From contig NC_092680.1 of NCBI RefSeq assembly GCF_964355755.1, forward strand, positions 1,837,001 through 1,901,000: DNA of 64,000 bases, read 5' to 3'. The notes beneath the pieces are model-generated. The model saw only the letters and a list, made by a program, of their open reading frames with translations, ran no database searches and was not told where the DNA came from. Each line of letters starts with the position of its first letter. The stretch's first letter is position 1. The translations under genes and the position numbers were made by a program. The DNA is from Antedon mediterranea (taxonomy: Eukaryota; Echinodermata; Crinoidea; Comatulida; Antedonidae). Below, one piece after another: positions 31,199-59,320 of the stretch.

Positions 31199-34100
31199 TC
31201 ATAATGCATTTTCAGATTTTGGGTTTGCCGTGGTCGGCAATGACGTAGTACCGTGCAGAACAATACTCCAGCTGTACATCTGACCTATAACATTGATATT
31301 AATATCTATTAGTATTAGTTAATAACAACAAGAGCTCAAACTTACTTCTAAATAAAAGTATTTTTCAAATCAATCTAATCCTAATCTTTATCACAACTAA
31401 CGTATAGGCCTACATAACATTTTCGTATAAACACTATAGTATAGTTGTGTGAAATAAAAGTAACTTCAATTTCAATAACCAATTTCATTTGTTGAATCAG
31501 TACAGTACACCATAATGCCAGGTTCTTAACATAAACGTGCCCAAATGCTTAGGATTGCGCGTTAGTTTGGAATAAGTGCAAAACTACCGTCCGGTTATAA
31601 CTAAAAATTTTATAAAACTAACAAGTGTATATTAAATTTTATAAGATTTTTGTACACTATTATAGGCCTACCTGAAGTTGATGGACTGAAAAAATATCGA
31701 TATCTATTGCGATCTTCCACCTTCAACCTCCATATTCCAAATGCCGTCTCTCCCCAACTATGTGTTGTCAAAAACGGCCAATTCTGGAACGATTTACCAA
31801 AGTCATTTGGTCTGGGTGACAAGAGATTTGACTGGGTACCAGATGGTGATGTCAGAGTAATGGCGAGGTTGCCACGACGTTTGTGGTAAAGGCTGATTTT
31901 AACTTGAACATGTTCAATGTATCGTACGGCATTACTTGTTCCAGCACAACCATTCGTACGAATCTGAAGATACAGGCTATCACCACTAGTGATATTTCTA
32001 AAAGAATAAAGATTCAAATAATATATAGGCCTCCTAGGTGTATAACAAAAATAGTTCATTATAACGTGACATGTCTAAAGCTCTGTCTACATCAAACTTT
32101 ATGTGACAAAAAATGTGATGTGCCCAAATATGGACATGATGATGTCATATTACTACCATATTTGGGCATATCACTACCATATTTGGGCACACTTTTTTGT
32201 CAAACTAGTCACTTTATAGTATAGACAGAGCAGGGAGTTGTTATAATAACAACTCCCTGGACAGAGCGTTAGAAGATATAAGCTATACTTACTGAGGCAT
32301 TCCTGATCCTTCGACAATACACACATGTTGTTCCGGTAATGGCTGCCAGTCCTCTGCCGTGGTCACCATAGATTTAGCATCCATTAAGCCAAATCCAAAT
32401 TTATGTGACACTAAGGAAGAAATTATACATAACATTTTTAAATGACATTTGATAATTGTATACTTCTTTGGGAAGTTTTAAAGACATAGGCATATTGGTA
32501 TTATATTAAGAAGAAACGAGAGGAGATAGGAACAGATGAATAAGTTACGATAAGTCACAAAGATAAACGAGAGGAGATCAGATGAATAAGTTACGATAAG
32601 TCACAAAGATAAACGAGAGGAGTTAGGAACAGATGAATAAGTTACGATAAGTCACAAAGATAAACGAGAGGAGTTAGGAACAGATGAATAAGTTACGATA
32701 AGTCACAAAGATAAACGAGAGGAGTTAGGAACAGATGAATAAGTTACGATAAGTCACAAAGATAAACGAGAGGAGTTAGGAACAGATGAATACGTTACGA
32801 TAAGTCACAAAGATAAACGAGAGGAGTTAGGAACAGATGAATAAGTTACGATAAGTCACAAAGATAAACGAGAGGAGTTAGGAACAGATGAATACGTTAC
32901 GATAAGTCACAAAGATAAACGAGAGGAGTTAGGAACAGATGAATAAGTTACGATAAGTCACAAAGATAAACGAGAGGAGTTAGGAACAGATGAATAAGTT
33001 ACGATAAGTCACAAAGATAAACGAGAGGAGTTAGGAACAGATGAATAAGTTACGATAAGTCACAAAGATAAACGAGAGGAGTTAGGAACAGATGAATAAG
33101 TTACGATAAGTCACAAAGATAAACGAGAGGAGTTAGGAACAGATGAATAAGTTACGATAAGTCACAAAGATAAACGAGAGACTAGAAAGGTACAGTAGAG
33201 ACCTAAAGTATAGAACAGATAGGTCATTACCATAGTATCCGGCTCCGTTTTTTTTCCACACATCTCGCAGGTTTGCTCTTCTTGATGTTTTCACAACAAT
33301 ATACTGCAAATCTCTCCATGACAATAAAGGACTGTAAATAAAATTGTCATAAACACAGAAGAAAATAAGCACAGTTTTTCTTTTCTTATTTAAAAAACGC
33401 ATAAAGTCTAAACAGCAAGAGTTACCTAAGCAAACATGATTATTTTGTAAAAAGCATACACCATCTGGTTTTGTGACCGTGAAAACAGTTAATTTGAAAC
33501 CATCTTTTGGTTAGAAAATGTCTTACTTTGCTTGTAGCGCAAGTGCACATATCCCAGCAGCCAATGGGGCAGAAGCAGAAGTGCCCGTATGTACATCGCT
33601 GCAACCATTGTTCAAATCGGTCGTTATCTATAAGTAAATATTACAACCAATTACAAGATTTTGGATTAAAATTTGTTTCTTTCAACTACTAGAATTTGTT
33701 TTAGTGAATGAAATCCTCTTTAGATCTTATAGCTTTAAACTATATTGTGCTCATCTTTGGTGTGACTATCGTATGATGATAATTAGATCTATTAATGTAT
33801 GCTATAATAAATGCGCTGCACCGTATATTATATTGAATGTCTCTAGAAGCAGTATGGTGTTTATTGAATATGGTGTCCCTTCCTTTAATGAGTTGAAAAT
33901 CTATCTATGGTTTCATGCAACGTATGTTGAATAGTGGTGACATCATTGTTGCTTGTGTTTGCAAACATATGCTCCATAACTAAAACATTTATTGTAGATT
34001 GAGAAGTATCCTATATAGGCTTATTTTAACTTGGAGTTTGCGCATTTTCGTTTTTCTTTTTCTGTTTGTACGCTGTTGATATAGATGAAATTTTTCCGAA

Positions 34101-37100
34101 ATAAAAAAAATCAATTAAATAAGGGCGAGGCGAAGGAAGAAACGTTGTCCATGTTTTAAACATAAAATTTTGGTTTATGATTTACCACAGCTTTTCCATT
34201 TGTAGCAGCACTGTAGGTTGTAGCCATGACTGACGGGCATGACTCAGCATAACGTGGTAGATTTCCCGTCATGCTCGCACTCGTTACAGACAATGTGTAT
34301 ATACTTGTTACGTAACCGTCACAACTACAATGATCTTTTACTGTACCGCCATTTCCAGAAGCCCACACAAAAATTGATCCAAGACCGTTCCTTCCCTAAA
34401 AAACAGCAATGAAAAACATTTTAAGAAAATTTGGGTCACAGTCATTGAAATCAACTAATCCATGTTTTCTTATCCACCATGAAGTAAAGCTAGAATGTTT
34501 ATAATTTAGGATTTTAACTTTGATAGTTCAAACTCGGAGAGGCTCAGAGAGAGACCAAAAGGAAGACCAAAAACAATTACATGGATGGCTAACATAGAAA
34601 GGAAACAGAAATGTTCACATGCGGACCTATAGGCCCGGCACGTTCTTGCTTAAAAACGTACTGAGTGGCGAACACAAGTGAGACGCGCAATGTCTAACGA
34701 CGATTAGCATTTAAGATGATGAGTTTAAACTAATTTTTGGTAATCTTTATAACGTAAAATAAAATCCCTCCGCATTATTGTATATGAATTTGGCCTACCA
34801 TTTTTGCACCATCTTCCAACGCCTTTGTTGTCAGCAGTCCTGGTCCATCTACATCCCTACCAGTATCGTCTGGTCCCCAGCTGATACTGTATATGCTAAT
34901 TACCTGTCTGTTAAAGCTCAAAGACGCTGCTTCCACGACATCTGACAACGAGTGGTCAAGCATTCGTATACCTTACGGAATAAAAATATTTACATTTTGA
35001 GACGACTGTGAATACAGATTTGAAGATTCTTAAGGCCTTGTCTACACTATCAAACTTTACGTGACAAAAATTTGCCCATATATGGACATCATATCACTAC
35101 CATATTTGGGCATGCCACTACCATATTTGGGCACATCACACTTTTGTTGTCAAACTAGTTTGATAGTGTAGACAGATCTTAAGCTTAGTACGTATGGCAG
35201 TCTACACTAGAAAACTTTAGCAAACTTACCCCCAATTTTAGAGTTGTAAGCAATACCGACACCACATATACTGTTGTTGGCTTGCATAGCTACTTCTCCA
35301 GCACATCTGGTTCCATGGCTGCAATAACATTGAACATTAGTATTTATAATTTATTTCGTTTACATGTTTTACAAGTTTTGAAACTTAGGCCTAAGGCATG
35401 CTTGTTAATGTTGTTTAATTTATTACATGCTTTTATATTCACGCGAATCGAACAATCTTGAGTTCTGATTGGTTGCGCATTTGTGTTTTTTTTGCTTCAC
35501 AAAAACTAGATGAAAATATTAATACGCATGCGCAGTAGTGTCAACGCTTTCAATTCGCGCAATTTGTCTAGTGAAAACTGAAGAAGACATAAACAATAGG
35601 CCTATTGGGATAAAAACGTAACTCGTGTTTAACTTAACTTCGAGCTCATTCTTGCTCAGCAACAAATTAATACGAATCCACGTTCAATTTAGTTTGAGAC
35701 TTACTTGTTATCCTTTCGTTTAGTGTATTTTGGAAGTGGGTCATCATCCCAGTCGATGAAATCATAACTTGCTGATGGTTCCTAAATGATCAGAAATAAA
35801 TGACCACAGATGTTGTAAAATAAGTAACTAAACCTATTAACATATGACTCGTAACGCGTTGGTCGTGTCTAAATGATAATACTTATAATATAATAATGTA
35901 TTATAATGAAAATTAAGCTTGGTTCCCACGAGGACGCAACGCAATGACGTAATGGCAACGCAAGCGTGTTGACCAATGACAAGCGACAGTTCGAATAATC
36001 CATCGCTTGAGATTGGTAAATTCACCCACGTTGTGTTACGTCCTTGTGTTACGTCTCTAGTGGGAATCAAACATAAGAGCATAACTCATTTATAACTTTA
36101 TGATTGCTTGTCAGGCTTCTGAAGAATAGAAGCTGAAACAACGAAACTGTCAAGAAAGTACCATTTTAAATCATTTTTTAATACAAGAAATTTCTATATT
36201 TTATGAAGAAATATAGCACTTACATAATTTTCGAGTAAATCAGGATGATTTCTCTCAATGCCATCGTCCACTATTGTGACAGCAACTCCCTCTCCTGTGT
36301 AGCCTTGTTGCCATGCCTCCACTACGCGGTGATCGAATCCATTACTACTGTACTAGTATAAGAACATATATACATAGAACACATCTTTGAGACGCTATTA
36401 TTTATTCCTAGCAAAGGGACAGGTGAAATTAACAAATAAAGGTTTTAACACTATACTCTACCAACTGTTTATTCAGTGGGACACCCAAATTAAGGGATAT
36501 TTGTTGTGTCCTGAAGGTGTTCCACTAGACTACGTTAATATTTGTTATTTTATGCGATCAGTATGCCTCGTTTGGTGAAAACATTTTCCTCTGGTTTCGA
36601 TTAGTATATTGATCATATGTAGTTCATTGATTGTAAACCAGTAATTTTAACTTATGTTTCAAGACAGTTTCGTCTAGATAATATATATATATATATATAT
36701 ATATACAATCTGCAGACAGTACTGTTTCGATCTTATTAGATCTCGTCAGTGCAGCTCAGTCAATATAATGTCTCGTTTGTATTGTTATTATTTAAACCAT
36801 ATTTAATATATATGATTTCAAGTGTATAGAACAATTCAACTTTACATCTAGTATTAAATTCGAACACCTGTGAGAACCTGTTTAAATATATCAAAGGTAA
36901 TCGTATATAAAGGTAATGCTTTTAAAATAAACAATTCAAAATACATCATTATATATTGAAAGGCAACATGTCAACGGTGAATACCGAGATAGCTTTAATG
37001 TAAACATTTTCTATGAGGAGCTTGGATATTAAATGTTGTTTGGAGAAAACGAATATCAGTGGCTGGAAATAATTGCGAACTGCCTCAAGCTCTGTCTACA

Positions 37101-39647
37101 CTATCAAACTAGTTTGACAAAAAAAGTGGGATGATGTGCGCAAATACGGTAATGATATGACATCATCATGTCCATATATGGGCATATCATTTTTTTGTCA
37201 CATAAAATGTGATAGTGTAGACAGAGCTTTAGTACAGAGTGCGATAAATCTTCCCATAATGCATAAACAACATGTTCAATCTTACTAAAAAACAAATATA
37301 TTAAGTTTGATTTCAAGTGATATCTATCACGTGTCATTATCTCTATCTAGAAAAATGTCTTGTAGCACGAACGACTGTTTATACTTTGCTGTGTAGCAAG
37401 CAAGGCGACATGTTCTAAGTAGCATAATATTCTTACCAGATACCATTGTTTGGAAACGAAAACGTCATTGGATATGTCTCGTTTAGCTCTTGACTTGTGA
37501 ATTTGCTGTTCGAACCATTTCACCTAAACAAGAAACATTTTTACTTTTTTTATAATGTCACTGCTGCGTCGGTTTTGTTTTCACCTTATTGTAGGCCTAT
37601 ACCGTATTTATACTAATGATGATAAAAAAGAAACATTTCCCTGCCACGTAACATACACCTAAATGTGAAAGTTTACATAAGTCAACTGCAATTCGTGTAG
37701 TAGGCCTAGGCTACACAAATTAAAATCATAATTGAAAAAAAAGGGATACAAAAAGGATGAAAAAGAAGGCTAAACAAATCTCTAGGCCTATGATCATTCC
37801 ATACAACATTGATGTGGTGGTACAATCAGGGGGAGAGTGAACACTCCCTGGTACCCGGGAACTTAAGTCCCTGCTGGTACAATGTTTGTCTCATTTTATG
37901 AGCTTATATTGTATTTTTTAAAGTTATTTGGTGCTAGAACGGCCCCTGTATGAAAGTTCACCCTAACTAGGATGAAATAATAAAATAAATCATTCTTTTT
38001 ATTTCGTCAGGACATTTCAATTGCACGTATACACCCAATTATATATCCATCCAAAATAAAAAAAAAAACATAGCTAAATTTTATCTGTGTAGCCGATTAG
38101 TTTTTTAGTTATTTATTTAAAATTGGGCAAACTGCCAAGAAGGAACCATGATAGCATAGCTAAAGGCCTAACACAGAAGTTGAAAAGGAATATACAAATT
38201 CGTCAATAAGAAAACATACACTCAGATTCAACTAAAGCGTGGTTCCCATAGCGACGCAACGCAAGGACGTAACGCAACGCAAGTGAATTGACCAATCACA
38301 AGCGATGGCTTATTCGCTTGTGATTGATAACTGTCTATAACTTCGCTTGTCATTGGTTAAAACGCTTGCGTTGCGTTTACGTCCTTGCGTTACGTTCTAG
38401 TGGGAACCAATCTTTAGTTCTTTGCACCTAAACTGACTAAATGATGTCGACAAATTACATTTAGATTCATATTCATTCAACATTTATTTAGAAACAGTTC
38501 AAGAAATAAAAGAAGCATACATTTACAATAACTTAAATGGCAACAATAAATAAGAACTGTTTCAGGAATCGAAAAAGTATTACTAACAATGAGCTATATA
38601 ATTATTTTCTTTAAAAAAACTCCTTAAGCTCTGTGTCTAAACTTTTAAACTAGTTTGAAAAAAAGTGTGATGTGCCAAAATGTGGTGGTGATATGCCCAA
38701 ATATGGTAGTGATATGACATCATCATGTCCATATATGAGCACATCACATTTTTTGGCACATAAAGTTTGATAGTGTAGACAGAGCGTTAAACGATTATGC
38801 GTTTTTACGTTGACTTTCTTAAAACAAAACAAAAATATTTCTTTATCCATACCTGCGGCTCCTCTTTGATGTTGATATGTGCACCATCACTTGGTAAAAT
38901 AGATCTTTTGTTAATGTTGCCACGGGAATATAGGTAAAAATCATCGAGCGACCCAACCTATTTAATTTAACAAATTAAGACAAATATTTTGAATATAAAT
39001 ATTCGCTTTTATTTGATAAAAGAATGTTTTTTTTCTATTAGTATTTAAGTTAGCAATAGATAATGGCAGAAATGGTTTCAGGCGACAGATATATTTGTGT
39101 CAACTCTTCGGGTTCCAAACAAGTATGCCAATCAACTCAATTTCCCCGCTTAATAATAATAATAATAAACAGTATTTATATAGCGCGCCTAATTGATCAC
39201 TGACCCCTCTAGGTGCTTTACATAGGACCTTAACTAATGGTAATAAACTATCCCCCGCCGGACACCATTCCAGTATTTCTTAGTCGAGGTTTCGGGGATG
39301 GAGACAATCAATAATGTGAAAAAAAAAATGTAACTAAGCTTAACTATGCTTAACTAAGGTAAAACTATCCCCCGCCGGACACCATCCCGGTATTTCTGAG
39401 TCAAGGTTTCGGGGCCAATGTTACCAATGTTTCTTATCTGTAAACACATTAATGATTATGTAATTGTTGAACGTACCTGTCCGTGGAACTGGTACCCATA
39501 TTTGTCTGCCAATTCAGCAGCTGACTGCGAACCTCCAAGAACCTGGGCTGCATAATAGCTGGAGTAGGTGGTCAGACCAGCTAAACACTGACCATATTTA
39601 ACAGCAATCAATACAAGATAGCATATTACAGCAATAAGTCTATGCAT
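31199..39647 (-). CDS. Short furin-like proprotein convertase lacking the Cys-rich and membrane regions (tandem paralogue)
   Basis: Subtilisin/kexin-type convertase of 590 residues in 13 exons: 39477-39647, 38853-38957, 37437-37523, 36224-36352, 35705-35781, 35230-35318, 34799-34971, 34186-34395, 33527-33627, 33231-33331, 32293-32410, 31672-31997, 31199-31284. Leader, prodomain ending RAKR107, Asp150, His191, Asn292 and Ser364 are all present, so activity is expected. The P domain closes with [10 protein letters not shown] in the last exon, and 15 codons later comes TGA; there is no Cys-rich repeat or transmembrane segment. Exons 2, 5, 6, 7, 9 and 11 have exactly the lengths of the neighbouring long gene, showing tandem duplication. 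I chose the ATG at 39647 because it begins a hydrophobic leader and gives exon 1 nearly the paralogue's length; an in-frame ATG at 39710 would add 21 residues. Probably a soluble luminal or secreted protease (inference). Confidence 0.9.
32075..32231. mobile_element. MITE family 1 copy
   Basis: TAAAGCTCTGTCTACATCAA left end, ATGATGATGTCATATTACTA interior, two 21-bp units, and TATAGACAGAGC right end. Intron 11 of the short convertase. Confidence 0.8.
32512..33180. repeat. 51-bp minisatellite, about 13 units
   Basis: Unit GATAAACGAGAGGAGTTAGG, AACAGATGAATAAGTTACGA, TAAGTCACAAA; the first unit lacks some bases. It lies in intron 10 of the short convertase and ends 50 bases from exon 10. Confidence 0.93.
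35030..35182. mobile_element. MITE family 1 copy
   Basis: TTAAGGCCTTGTCTACACTA left end and GATAGTGTAGACAGATCTTA right end, with two to three 21-bp-type units between. TTAA borders both ends. Intron 6 of the short convertase. Confidence 0.8.
35915..36071. mobile_element. MITE family 2 copy
   Basis: GCTTGGTTCCCACGAGGACG left end and CTAGTGGGAATCAAAC right end with the ACGTAACGCAAC-type inverted interior. Intron 4 of the short convertase. Confidence 0.75.
36678..36706. repeat. TA dinucleotide repeat
   Basis: About 13 TA units, directly downstream of the hammerhead ribozyme on the minus strand. Confidence 0.9.
36710..36754 (-). ncRNA. Type I hammerhead ribozyme fold
   Basis: All parts of a hammerhead are in order on the minus strand. 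Stem I 5' strand CUGCA is at 36754-36750, core CUGACGA at 36749-36743, and stem II GAUCU-AAUA-AGAUC at 36742-36729 (5 perfect pairs, tetraloop). GAAA is at 36728-36725. Stem III is formed by ACA(G)...(C)UGU down to 36716. The cleavage triplet ends at C36715, and stem I's 3' strand UGCAG (36714-36710) pairs perfectly with CUGCA. Predicted cleavage is between 36715 and 36714. It lies in intron 3 of the short convertase, in the sense orientation. Such ribozymes are known in Penelope-like elements and retrozymes; activity here is predicted only. Confidence 0.8.
37086..37231. mobile_element. MITE family 1 copy
   Basis: AAGCTCTGTCTACACTATCA left end and GATAGTGTAGACAGAGCTTT right end; interior orientation is reversed relative to the copy at 32,075. 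Intron 3 of the short convertase. Confidence 0.8.
38233..38416. mobile_element. MITE family 2 copy, near-palindromic
   Basis: GGTTCCCATAGCGACGCAAC left end; GTTACGTTCTAGTGGGAACC right end. Interior arms AATCACAAGCGA and TCGCTTGTGATT extend the palindrome. Intron 2 of the short convertase. Confidence 0.8.
38623..38790. mobile_element. MITE family 1 copy
   Basis: TTAAGCTCTGTGTCTAAACT left end, GATAGTGTAGACAGAGCGTT right end, two 21-bp units (CCAAATATGGTAGTGATATG). Intron 2 of the short convertase, about 60 bases past its exon 2. Confidence 0.8.
39150..39432. mobile_element. Repeat with AATAATAACAGTATTTATATAGCGC head and duplicated block
   Basis: TAATAATAATAATAATAAAC, AGTATTTATATAGCGCGCC, then a block (ACTATCCCCCGCCGGACACC and GGTTTCGGGG) present twice, at about 39248-39298 and 39361-39412. 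The head is of a kind widespread in marine invertebrate genomes (from memory). Intron 1 of the short convertase. Confidence 0.45.
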
Positions 39648-40016: not shown

Positions 40017-41122
40017 TTTAGAGATACGACTGTAGTTTCAAATTAGAACATTTAATTTATTCCAAGCGACGAGTTTCTTCAAACTTTGATCGATCATTTT
40101 TATGAGGAATACACCTAAAACAAACAAAATATATTCGCGATTCTAGTCAGTCATTAGTCGTATATAATATAAACGCCTTTTGGGCTACGGTGGTGCAGTA
40201 TTTTTTACCCATAACCAGCTCCTCAGAGACATGAAAATCAAACACGGAACACGATATTTTAGTAGAAACCCATAAGTACATTTTTCTAATACACGTTTAA
40301 TATAGGAATATCAATTAACAAACAATATAATATATAAAATTGTATACTTTACTATTATTATATAAATATGCTACTATAAAATATAACACCTTCTAAAAGA
40401 GTCAGACTTTTTCTAAACATACATAATAATTTTCTTTAATATAACGGATTCCAGGTTGGATTTAAAGGGCTGTCATAATTCGCTATAAATAAGCCACTTG
40501 AGATGTATTCAGGTAAATATATGTAGATATTTAAATTGCTCATTTTAAACAACTCAAACAGAAAATAATTTTATATGAGCCTCGGGGATTGTCACTGTTT
40601 GGAAGCGAGAACAAATCTGTATGTAATTCTGTAAATGTCCAACAGTTGGATTAACTAAAATATTCACATATTGAATGCAAATAATTGTGTAATTGCATCA
40701 AAATTTAGCAGAATTTAGAGGTAACAAATCTATACCCTACGCATATACCGTATGTACCCTACGCATATACCGTATGTACCCTACGCATATACCGTATGTA
40801 CCCTACGCATATACCGTATGTACCCTACGCATATACCGTATGTACCCTACGCATATACCGTATGTACCCTACGCATATACCGTATGTACCATACGCATAT
40901 ACCGTATGTACCCTACGCATATACCGTATGTACCCTACGCATATACCGTATGTACCATACGCATATACCGTATGTACCATACGCATATATCGCATGTACC
41001 CTACGCATATACTGTGTATACAGTGAAAAATATTTGGTTAAAGCAGGGAACCCTGGTTAAAGATAGTTAATCAAACCTTATACCTGAAGATATATATATA
41101 TCTATTACTAATTAGTACTAGG
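40017..41122. other. Intergenic, short convertase to MAPK6-like
   Basis: AT-rich; holds only the 22-bp minisatellite. The region just below 41123 is the MAPK6-like 3' flank; no canonical polyadenylation hexamer was obvious before the satellite. Confidence 0.5.
40730..41027. repeat. 22-bp minisatellite, about 13 units
   Basis: Unit TACCCTACGCATATACCGTA plus TG, with CCATAC variants. As 22 is not divisible by three, the frames cycle, giving three short overlapping false ORFs. Located between the MAPK6-like 3' end and the short convertase's 5' end. Confidence 0.93.
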
Positions 41123-59283: not shown

Positions 59284-59320
59284 TAAGCAGAGCTTTCGGG
59301 CAACACTAGCCCTTCATCAG
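59284..59320 (-). ncRNA. Hammerhead-like core, probably from a Penelope-like element, stem I not formed
   Basis: On the minus strand: CUGATGA core (59320-59314), a GGGC/GCCC stem with a 7-base loop (59312-59298), then GAAA (59297-59294) and a very short AGC-UCU-GCU stem III. Flanks that should form stem I do not pair, so the copy is likely inactive. The phrase ATGAAGGGCTAGTGTTGCCC is of the kind I associate with Penelope-like element termini (from memory). It lies about 75 bases before the SLC27A2-like start codon. Confidence 0.45.

Follow-up and report, generated by a model that had tools for sequence, protein, structure and literature searches.

An intronic hammerhead motif of Antedon mediterranea as a very probable truncated copy of a retrozyme that prefers TA repeats

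Type I hammerhead ribozymes have been described in small retroelements of animals (retrozymes), in Penelope-like elements and in introns of amniote genes. For animal retrozymes, the available text of Cervera and de la Pena 2020 (PMC7229834) proposes that the genome is re-entered by means of circular RNA templates and a borrowed reverse transcriptase (RT). Type I hammerheads are also found in Penelope-like elements, whose targets for cutting are AT-rich DNA, and unprocessed RNA was the main substrate of one such element in vitro (PMC11167929, available parts). In amniote genes, conserved intronic hammerheads have been reported (PMC6155905, available parts). The motif described here lies in a 64,000-nucleotide stretch of Antedon mediterranea DNA (contig NC_092680.1, positions 1,837,001 to 1,901,000; the window), and it is very probably a 5′-truncated genomic copy of a non-autonomous hammerhead retrozyme with a preference for (TA)n. 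The features of the locus are collected in Table 1.

Table 1. Features at and around the hammerhead motif (window positions)
Feature	Position	Strand	Basis
Exon-containing reading frame downstream of the intron, start of Peptidase_S8	36194..36352	-	PF00082 positions 1-24, 20.1 bits (cut-off 21.8), E 4.5e-4; the frame overruns the exon's own donor
Intron of the convertase gene, containing the retrozyme copy	36353..37436 (1,084 bases)	-	donor GTAAGA following ...KQWYL, acceptor AG preceding YSSNGFDH, splice sites by eye; S8 exons
TA run on the 3′ side of the window copy, presumed target site	36681..36705		sequence; most terminal copies in the sample run into TA
5′-truncated retrozyme copy (54 bp), last part of a ~280-bp unit	36706..36759	-	blastn against the copy at locus L010, 100% over 54 bp
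Type I hammerhead ribozyme	36710..36754	-	rule-based scan; Rfam HH9 26.7 bits, below gathering; predicted cleavage after C36715
Last part of the upstream exon, including the KSRAKRD stretch	37437..37523	-	reading frame plus donor site; itself unmatched in Pfam

The hammerhead motif is real. Read on the minus strand, its 45 bases (36754-36710) are CTGCA-CTGACGA-GATCT-AATA-AGATC-GAA-ACA-GTAC-TGT-C^TGCAG, forming a stem I of 5 bp, a stem II of 5 bp with an AAUA loop, and a stem III of 3 bp with a GUAC loop. The original prediction of a complete type I hammerhead is borne out by this reading, with all three helices and the cleavage site where they had been claimed. A rule-based scan for type I hammerheads found a single match in the window, whereas 60 Markov-1 randomised windows contained none. 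A loose version of the core pattern is common, with 11 occurrences in the window and a shuffle mean of 3.2. Across the genome (354 Mb), a 26-base hammerhead core has 230 matches with at most two mismatches, and its reversed control has none. A chance origin is ruled out by these counts, and the genome-wide copy number, which had been put forward as a check, is that of a multi-copy motif. The covariance-model search put forward alongside it was only partly favourable. In the window every Rfam family stayed below its gathering score, and a search of 501 bases gave Hammerhead_HH9 as the top match (E 1.6e-4), a sub-threshold match that falls short of the gathering score of 52. In the genome, at least 17 HH9 matches were found at E ≤0.001 (best 34.4 bits) and none above the gathering cut-off, among the 58 of 13,494 candidates that were scored. 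The 60-base stretch with the hammerhead folds unremarkably (z -0.84; 39 of 200 shuffles as stable or better).

The host gene encodes a convertase and lies on the same strand as the hammerhead, placing the motif in sense orientation in the middle of an intron. Peptidase_S8 is matched above the cut-off at 35207-35350 and just below it at 36194-36352 and 34156-34395, and P_proprotein above the cut-off at 31610-32074, all on the minus strand. These matches and the splice sites read by eye support the claim that the motif is in the sense strand of a protease-gene intron. The KSRAKRD stretch of the upstream exon resembles a convertase processing site. The same intron carries 23-nt inverted arms (window 37084-37106 and 37210-37232; 96% complementary, 103 nt apart), and similar translated strings recur across 30-44 kb, suggesting a family of small inverted-repeat elements. 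Elsewhere, a stretch of the window (40693-41070) looks like a minisatellite, its reading frames giving a short repeated peptide (PYAYTVCTLRIYRMYPTHIPYV).

Longer copies of the family consist of head-to-tail units of 275-285 bp with one type I hammerhead per unit, and both tandem and dispersed copies occur. At locus L009 the unit, the only one measured for composition, is 285 bp long with 41% GC and contains the hammerhead core. Among loci L001-L028, which represent 23 distinct places chosen as good matches and not at random, ten places show a core spacing of 275-285 bp; spacings of 179 and 1,124 are also present. Three of the ten tandem places (L026-L028, contig C10) have a nearly identical 5′ flank and, judging from this, are probably one insertion that was duplicated. 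Similar two-unit retrozymes lie at four places in the 13.75-14.02 Mb region of C10 (these three and one more), 77-98 kb apart, which suggests a segmental duplication. The window copy is single and not tandem, the 54-bp stretch being the sole match of the window to the L010 copy at E ≤1e-3 (blastn). The motif had been taken for a probable relic of either a Penelope-like element or a retrozyme; the family and its 275-285 bp units found by the genome searches support the retrozyme origin and favour it over the Penelope-like one as the source.

Rearranged copies were also seen. On contig C9, a shortened unit is joined as GATTGGATAATGGGTGTATGT at loci L104-L107, four places that form two opposite-strand pairs 8-10 kb apart. 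Pieces of retrozyme are arranged as two tail-to-tail pairs and one head-to-head pair at L142/L143 (C8:6393166 and 6393262), L095 and L091, an arrangement that two-strand cutting could give. A different repeat, containing all or part of CTGATGAAGGGCTAGTGTTGCCCGAAA (window 59294-59320, minus strand; L118 near 6163; L034, L055 and L157), has the look of a hammerhead core with stem II. It was rejected as a hammerhead: stem I is unpaired by eye, and Rfam gave no hammerhead at window 59294-59320 (E ≤5) or in L118.

The ends of the copies were compared at 101 places, comprising the window copy and the 100 exact matches listed of the 230 (contig order, up to part of C10). Stem III and the 3′ strand of stem I could be parsed at 90 of the 101 by a strict count, which was used in preference to a looser TGCAG count (98/101), in which one substitution is tolerated at any point of the 34 nt and some matches are due to chance. 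Nine places were classed as tandem-internal, although two of them (L031 and L075) look terminal by eye, and 89 as terminal 3′ ends, 77 of which carry ATTGG with at most one substitution. In most copies of the samples examined, the 3′ end is close to GATTGG, 10 bases beyond the cleavage site, and a TA repeat follows. A TA run of at least 6 was found within 24 nt of the 3′ end in 71 of the 89 terminal copies, compared with 3.3% of random positions, and at the 5′ junction in 48 of the 101 places, compared with 2.1%, both backgrounds being those of this window only. The run is missing at 18 of the 89 ends classed as terminal, some of which are rearranged or decayed.

A second sample was made up of the 77 exact 3′ ends listed among 139 matches (at most one mismatch; reversed control 0), in which TA on the 3′ side is present by construction. 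Here a TA run of at least 6 occurs at the 5′ junction of 49 copies. Matched lengths range from 21 to 458 bases and are distributed as 18 copies of up to 62, 17 of 63-120, 17 of 121-180, 15 of 181-265 and 10 above 265. A few of these lengths are underestimates, among them L136 and L151 (internally deleted unit), because an indel or a deletion cut the alignment short. In eight copies (lengths 21-49) the match begins within the hammerhead itself, and in ten others (50-62) it begins no more than 12 bases above it. The 3′-end analysis anchored only 72 of the 101 5′ ends, and the 5′ figures (48/101 and 49/77) come from separate alignments, which still stop early at L050 and L069 at least. In both samples the 5′ ends are spread across the whole unit, unlike the fixed 3′ end. 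Since some of the sampled copies duplicate one insertion, the counts of ends are not all independent.

The presence of TA on both sides of the copies suggests that the repeats were the target and not a slippage tail alone; target-site duplications are masked by the repeats themselves. Because most sampled copies have TA repeats at their flanks, the TA repeat in the window can be regarded as the signature of an insertion site, and given the continuous series of 5′ truncations, the bare hammerhead beside it is an ordinary truncation product. The original prediction that no other element sequence is evident apart from a TA repeat thus holds literally, there being one 54-bp match in the window, but the TA repeat that it set aside is itself evidence.

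How such copies arise may be read from their junctions. A linear monomer cut by the ribozyme is expected to start with UGCAGAUUGG and finish with GUC, whereas typical genomic copies finish ...GUC-UGCAGAUUGG. Copies thus end past the cleavage site, and the RNA that was reverse-transcribed was therefore uncleaved or re-ligated there. The template would be an RNA with an intact or re-ligated cleavage site, either an uncleaved multimer or a ligated circle. Priming may occur when nicked TA-rich DNA pairs with the RNA's own AUAU just 3′ of the hammerhead, the enzyme would be an RT borrowed from another retroelement, and synthesis would usually stop early, in the window copy after 54 bases.

Starts one lap from the 3′ end suggest a circular template. 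Five of 108 places, in a count of unit positions that also counts extra laps, begin at unit position 10-11, exactly one lap from the 3′ end, and 3 of the 77 copies of the second sample have the corresponding start, two of these being shared with the 108-place set. Some copies are longer than one lap. Microhomology with TA repeats could also cluster 5′ ends at the one-lap point, and an uncleaved multimer fits the junctions as well. Folded as a circle, one unit has a minimum energy of -75.7 kcal/mol and 60% of its bases paired; the energies of 40 Markov shuffles average -60.1 (sd 9.3). It is possible, if tentative, that the junctions record a ligated circular ribozyme RNA that is primed by (TA)n at the AUAU 10 bases past the re-sealed site and reverse-transcribed round the circle. 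Truncated, one-lap and multi-lap copies would then be permuted relative to the cut monomer, and the stubs would spread intact hammerheads among introns. Without any circle, a SINE-like linear RNA beginning directly after AUAU and ending in the hammerhead, with a TA tail added by slippage, would account for the same five starts at unit position 10-11. This proposal concerns the template and is compatible with a truncated relic, but it is rather unlikely, as TA runs also occur on the 5′ side (48/101 and 49/77), where the RNA adds nothing, and copies exceeding one lap exist.

Two further readings concern the nature of the motif itself. It might have been domesticated, cutting the pre-mRNA of the convertase and so regulating splicing in the manner of the intronic hammerheads of amniotes. 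The complete motif in the sense strand in mid-intron would fit such a role, as would HH9 being the top Rfam relative and the conserved intronic hammerheads reported in amniote genes. Function could be argued from intactness, but the same 45 bases are found in 61 of 123 places, and intactness therefore reflects a young family. The truncation series also counters it, as 10 of the 77 exact-ended copies likewise match from at or just above the 5′ edge of the hammerhead. No two-sided compensatory changes were seen in the helices at the 123 places, where 48 of 1,599 pair cells were broken. By nearest-neighbour energies, the hammerhead fold reaches -7.0 kcal/mol against -10.5 for the best fold, and the active fold accounts for 0.16% of the ensemble when 116 nt are folded, figures that argue for weakness alone because the models omit the tertiary core. 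Stem I has 5 bp (in longer copies a further internal loop and 2 bp can be drawn by eye), and a contact between the loops of helices I and II is not evident. At 74 of the 90 parsed places the strand of stem III is self-complementary, with one sequence in 72 of them and a longer palindrome in 2, which shared ancestry alone can explain. Salamander hammerheads whose helix III is short reportedly act as dimers (PMC7229834, available text), and the convertase intron has one hammerhead copy only. A single short hammerhead with a weak stem III and no evident loop-loop contact should cut slowly, and the motif in the intron is most probably a passive relic, predicted to affect splicing little if at all. 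Domestication is accordingly judged quite improbable.

Descent from the pseudo-LTR of a Penelope-like element, instead of from a retrozyme, is likewise judged quite improbable. Such elements share the type I hammerhead and the cutting of AT-rich DNA, their minimal hammerheads are likewise described as lacking an evident loop-loop contact (PMC7761336, available parts), and the tail-to-tail and head-to-head arrangements noted above would suit them. Frames encoding RT plus GIY-YIG are present in the genome, with both domains above the cut-off at L118 and GIY-YIG just below it at L119. However, the tandem unit of 275-285 bp is too short for an RT gene or an RT plus GIY-YIG frame, and an autonomous partner with a hammerhead was not seen, as the three Penelope-like loci examined (L118, L119 and L120) gave no hammerhead match at E ≤1. 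The window hammerhead also has a stem III, which is usually absent from Penelope-type motifs in the available parts of PMC7761336. A truncated retrozyme copy is thus the preferred reading of the motif.

The fixed 3′ end beyond the cleavage site and the TA preference provide a junction-level test of the proposal that circular templates and a borrowed RT are used. Neither feature is described in the available text of PMC7229834 or was found in the further literature searched, which covers few subscription papers. The short 3′ stubs are also an easy source of isolated intronic hammerheads, and claims of function for single motifs therefore need more than an intact core.

Among described systems, Rfam RF02275 (Hammerhead_HH9) and the intronic hammerheads of amniotes resemble the motif in being single type I hammerheads in introns, with HH9 as the best covariance match, but differ in score (26.7 bits here against a gathering score of 52) and in that the family here is multi-copy. 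Penelope-like elements with minimal hammerheads, such as Poseidon of Anolis (PMC11167929, available parts), share the type I hammerhead, the AT-rich target and an internal start of reverse transcription on the RNA, which is reported for them and proposed here, as well as inverted pairs, found here in a few places. They differ in that the present unit is too short for an RT or endonuclease, has a stem III, and has its 3′ end roughly 10 nt from the cleavage site. The non-LTR retrozymes of metazoans (Cervera and de la Pena 2020) have, in the available text, a type I hammerhead, many copies and co-existing Penelope-like elements, as found here; the tandem units of 275-285 bp fall within their range of ~150-450 bp, and the low GC of 41% (one unit) compares with values below about 45-50%. 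The window copy departs from them in being a single 54-bp stub, and the contact between the loops of helices I and II that is canonical for those retrozymes is not evident in it. The element, on the strength of its ribozyme type, unit size, tandem layout and GC and as judged from its sequence, fits a metazoan non-LTR retrozyme.
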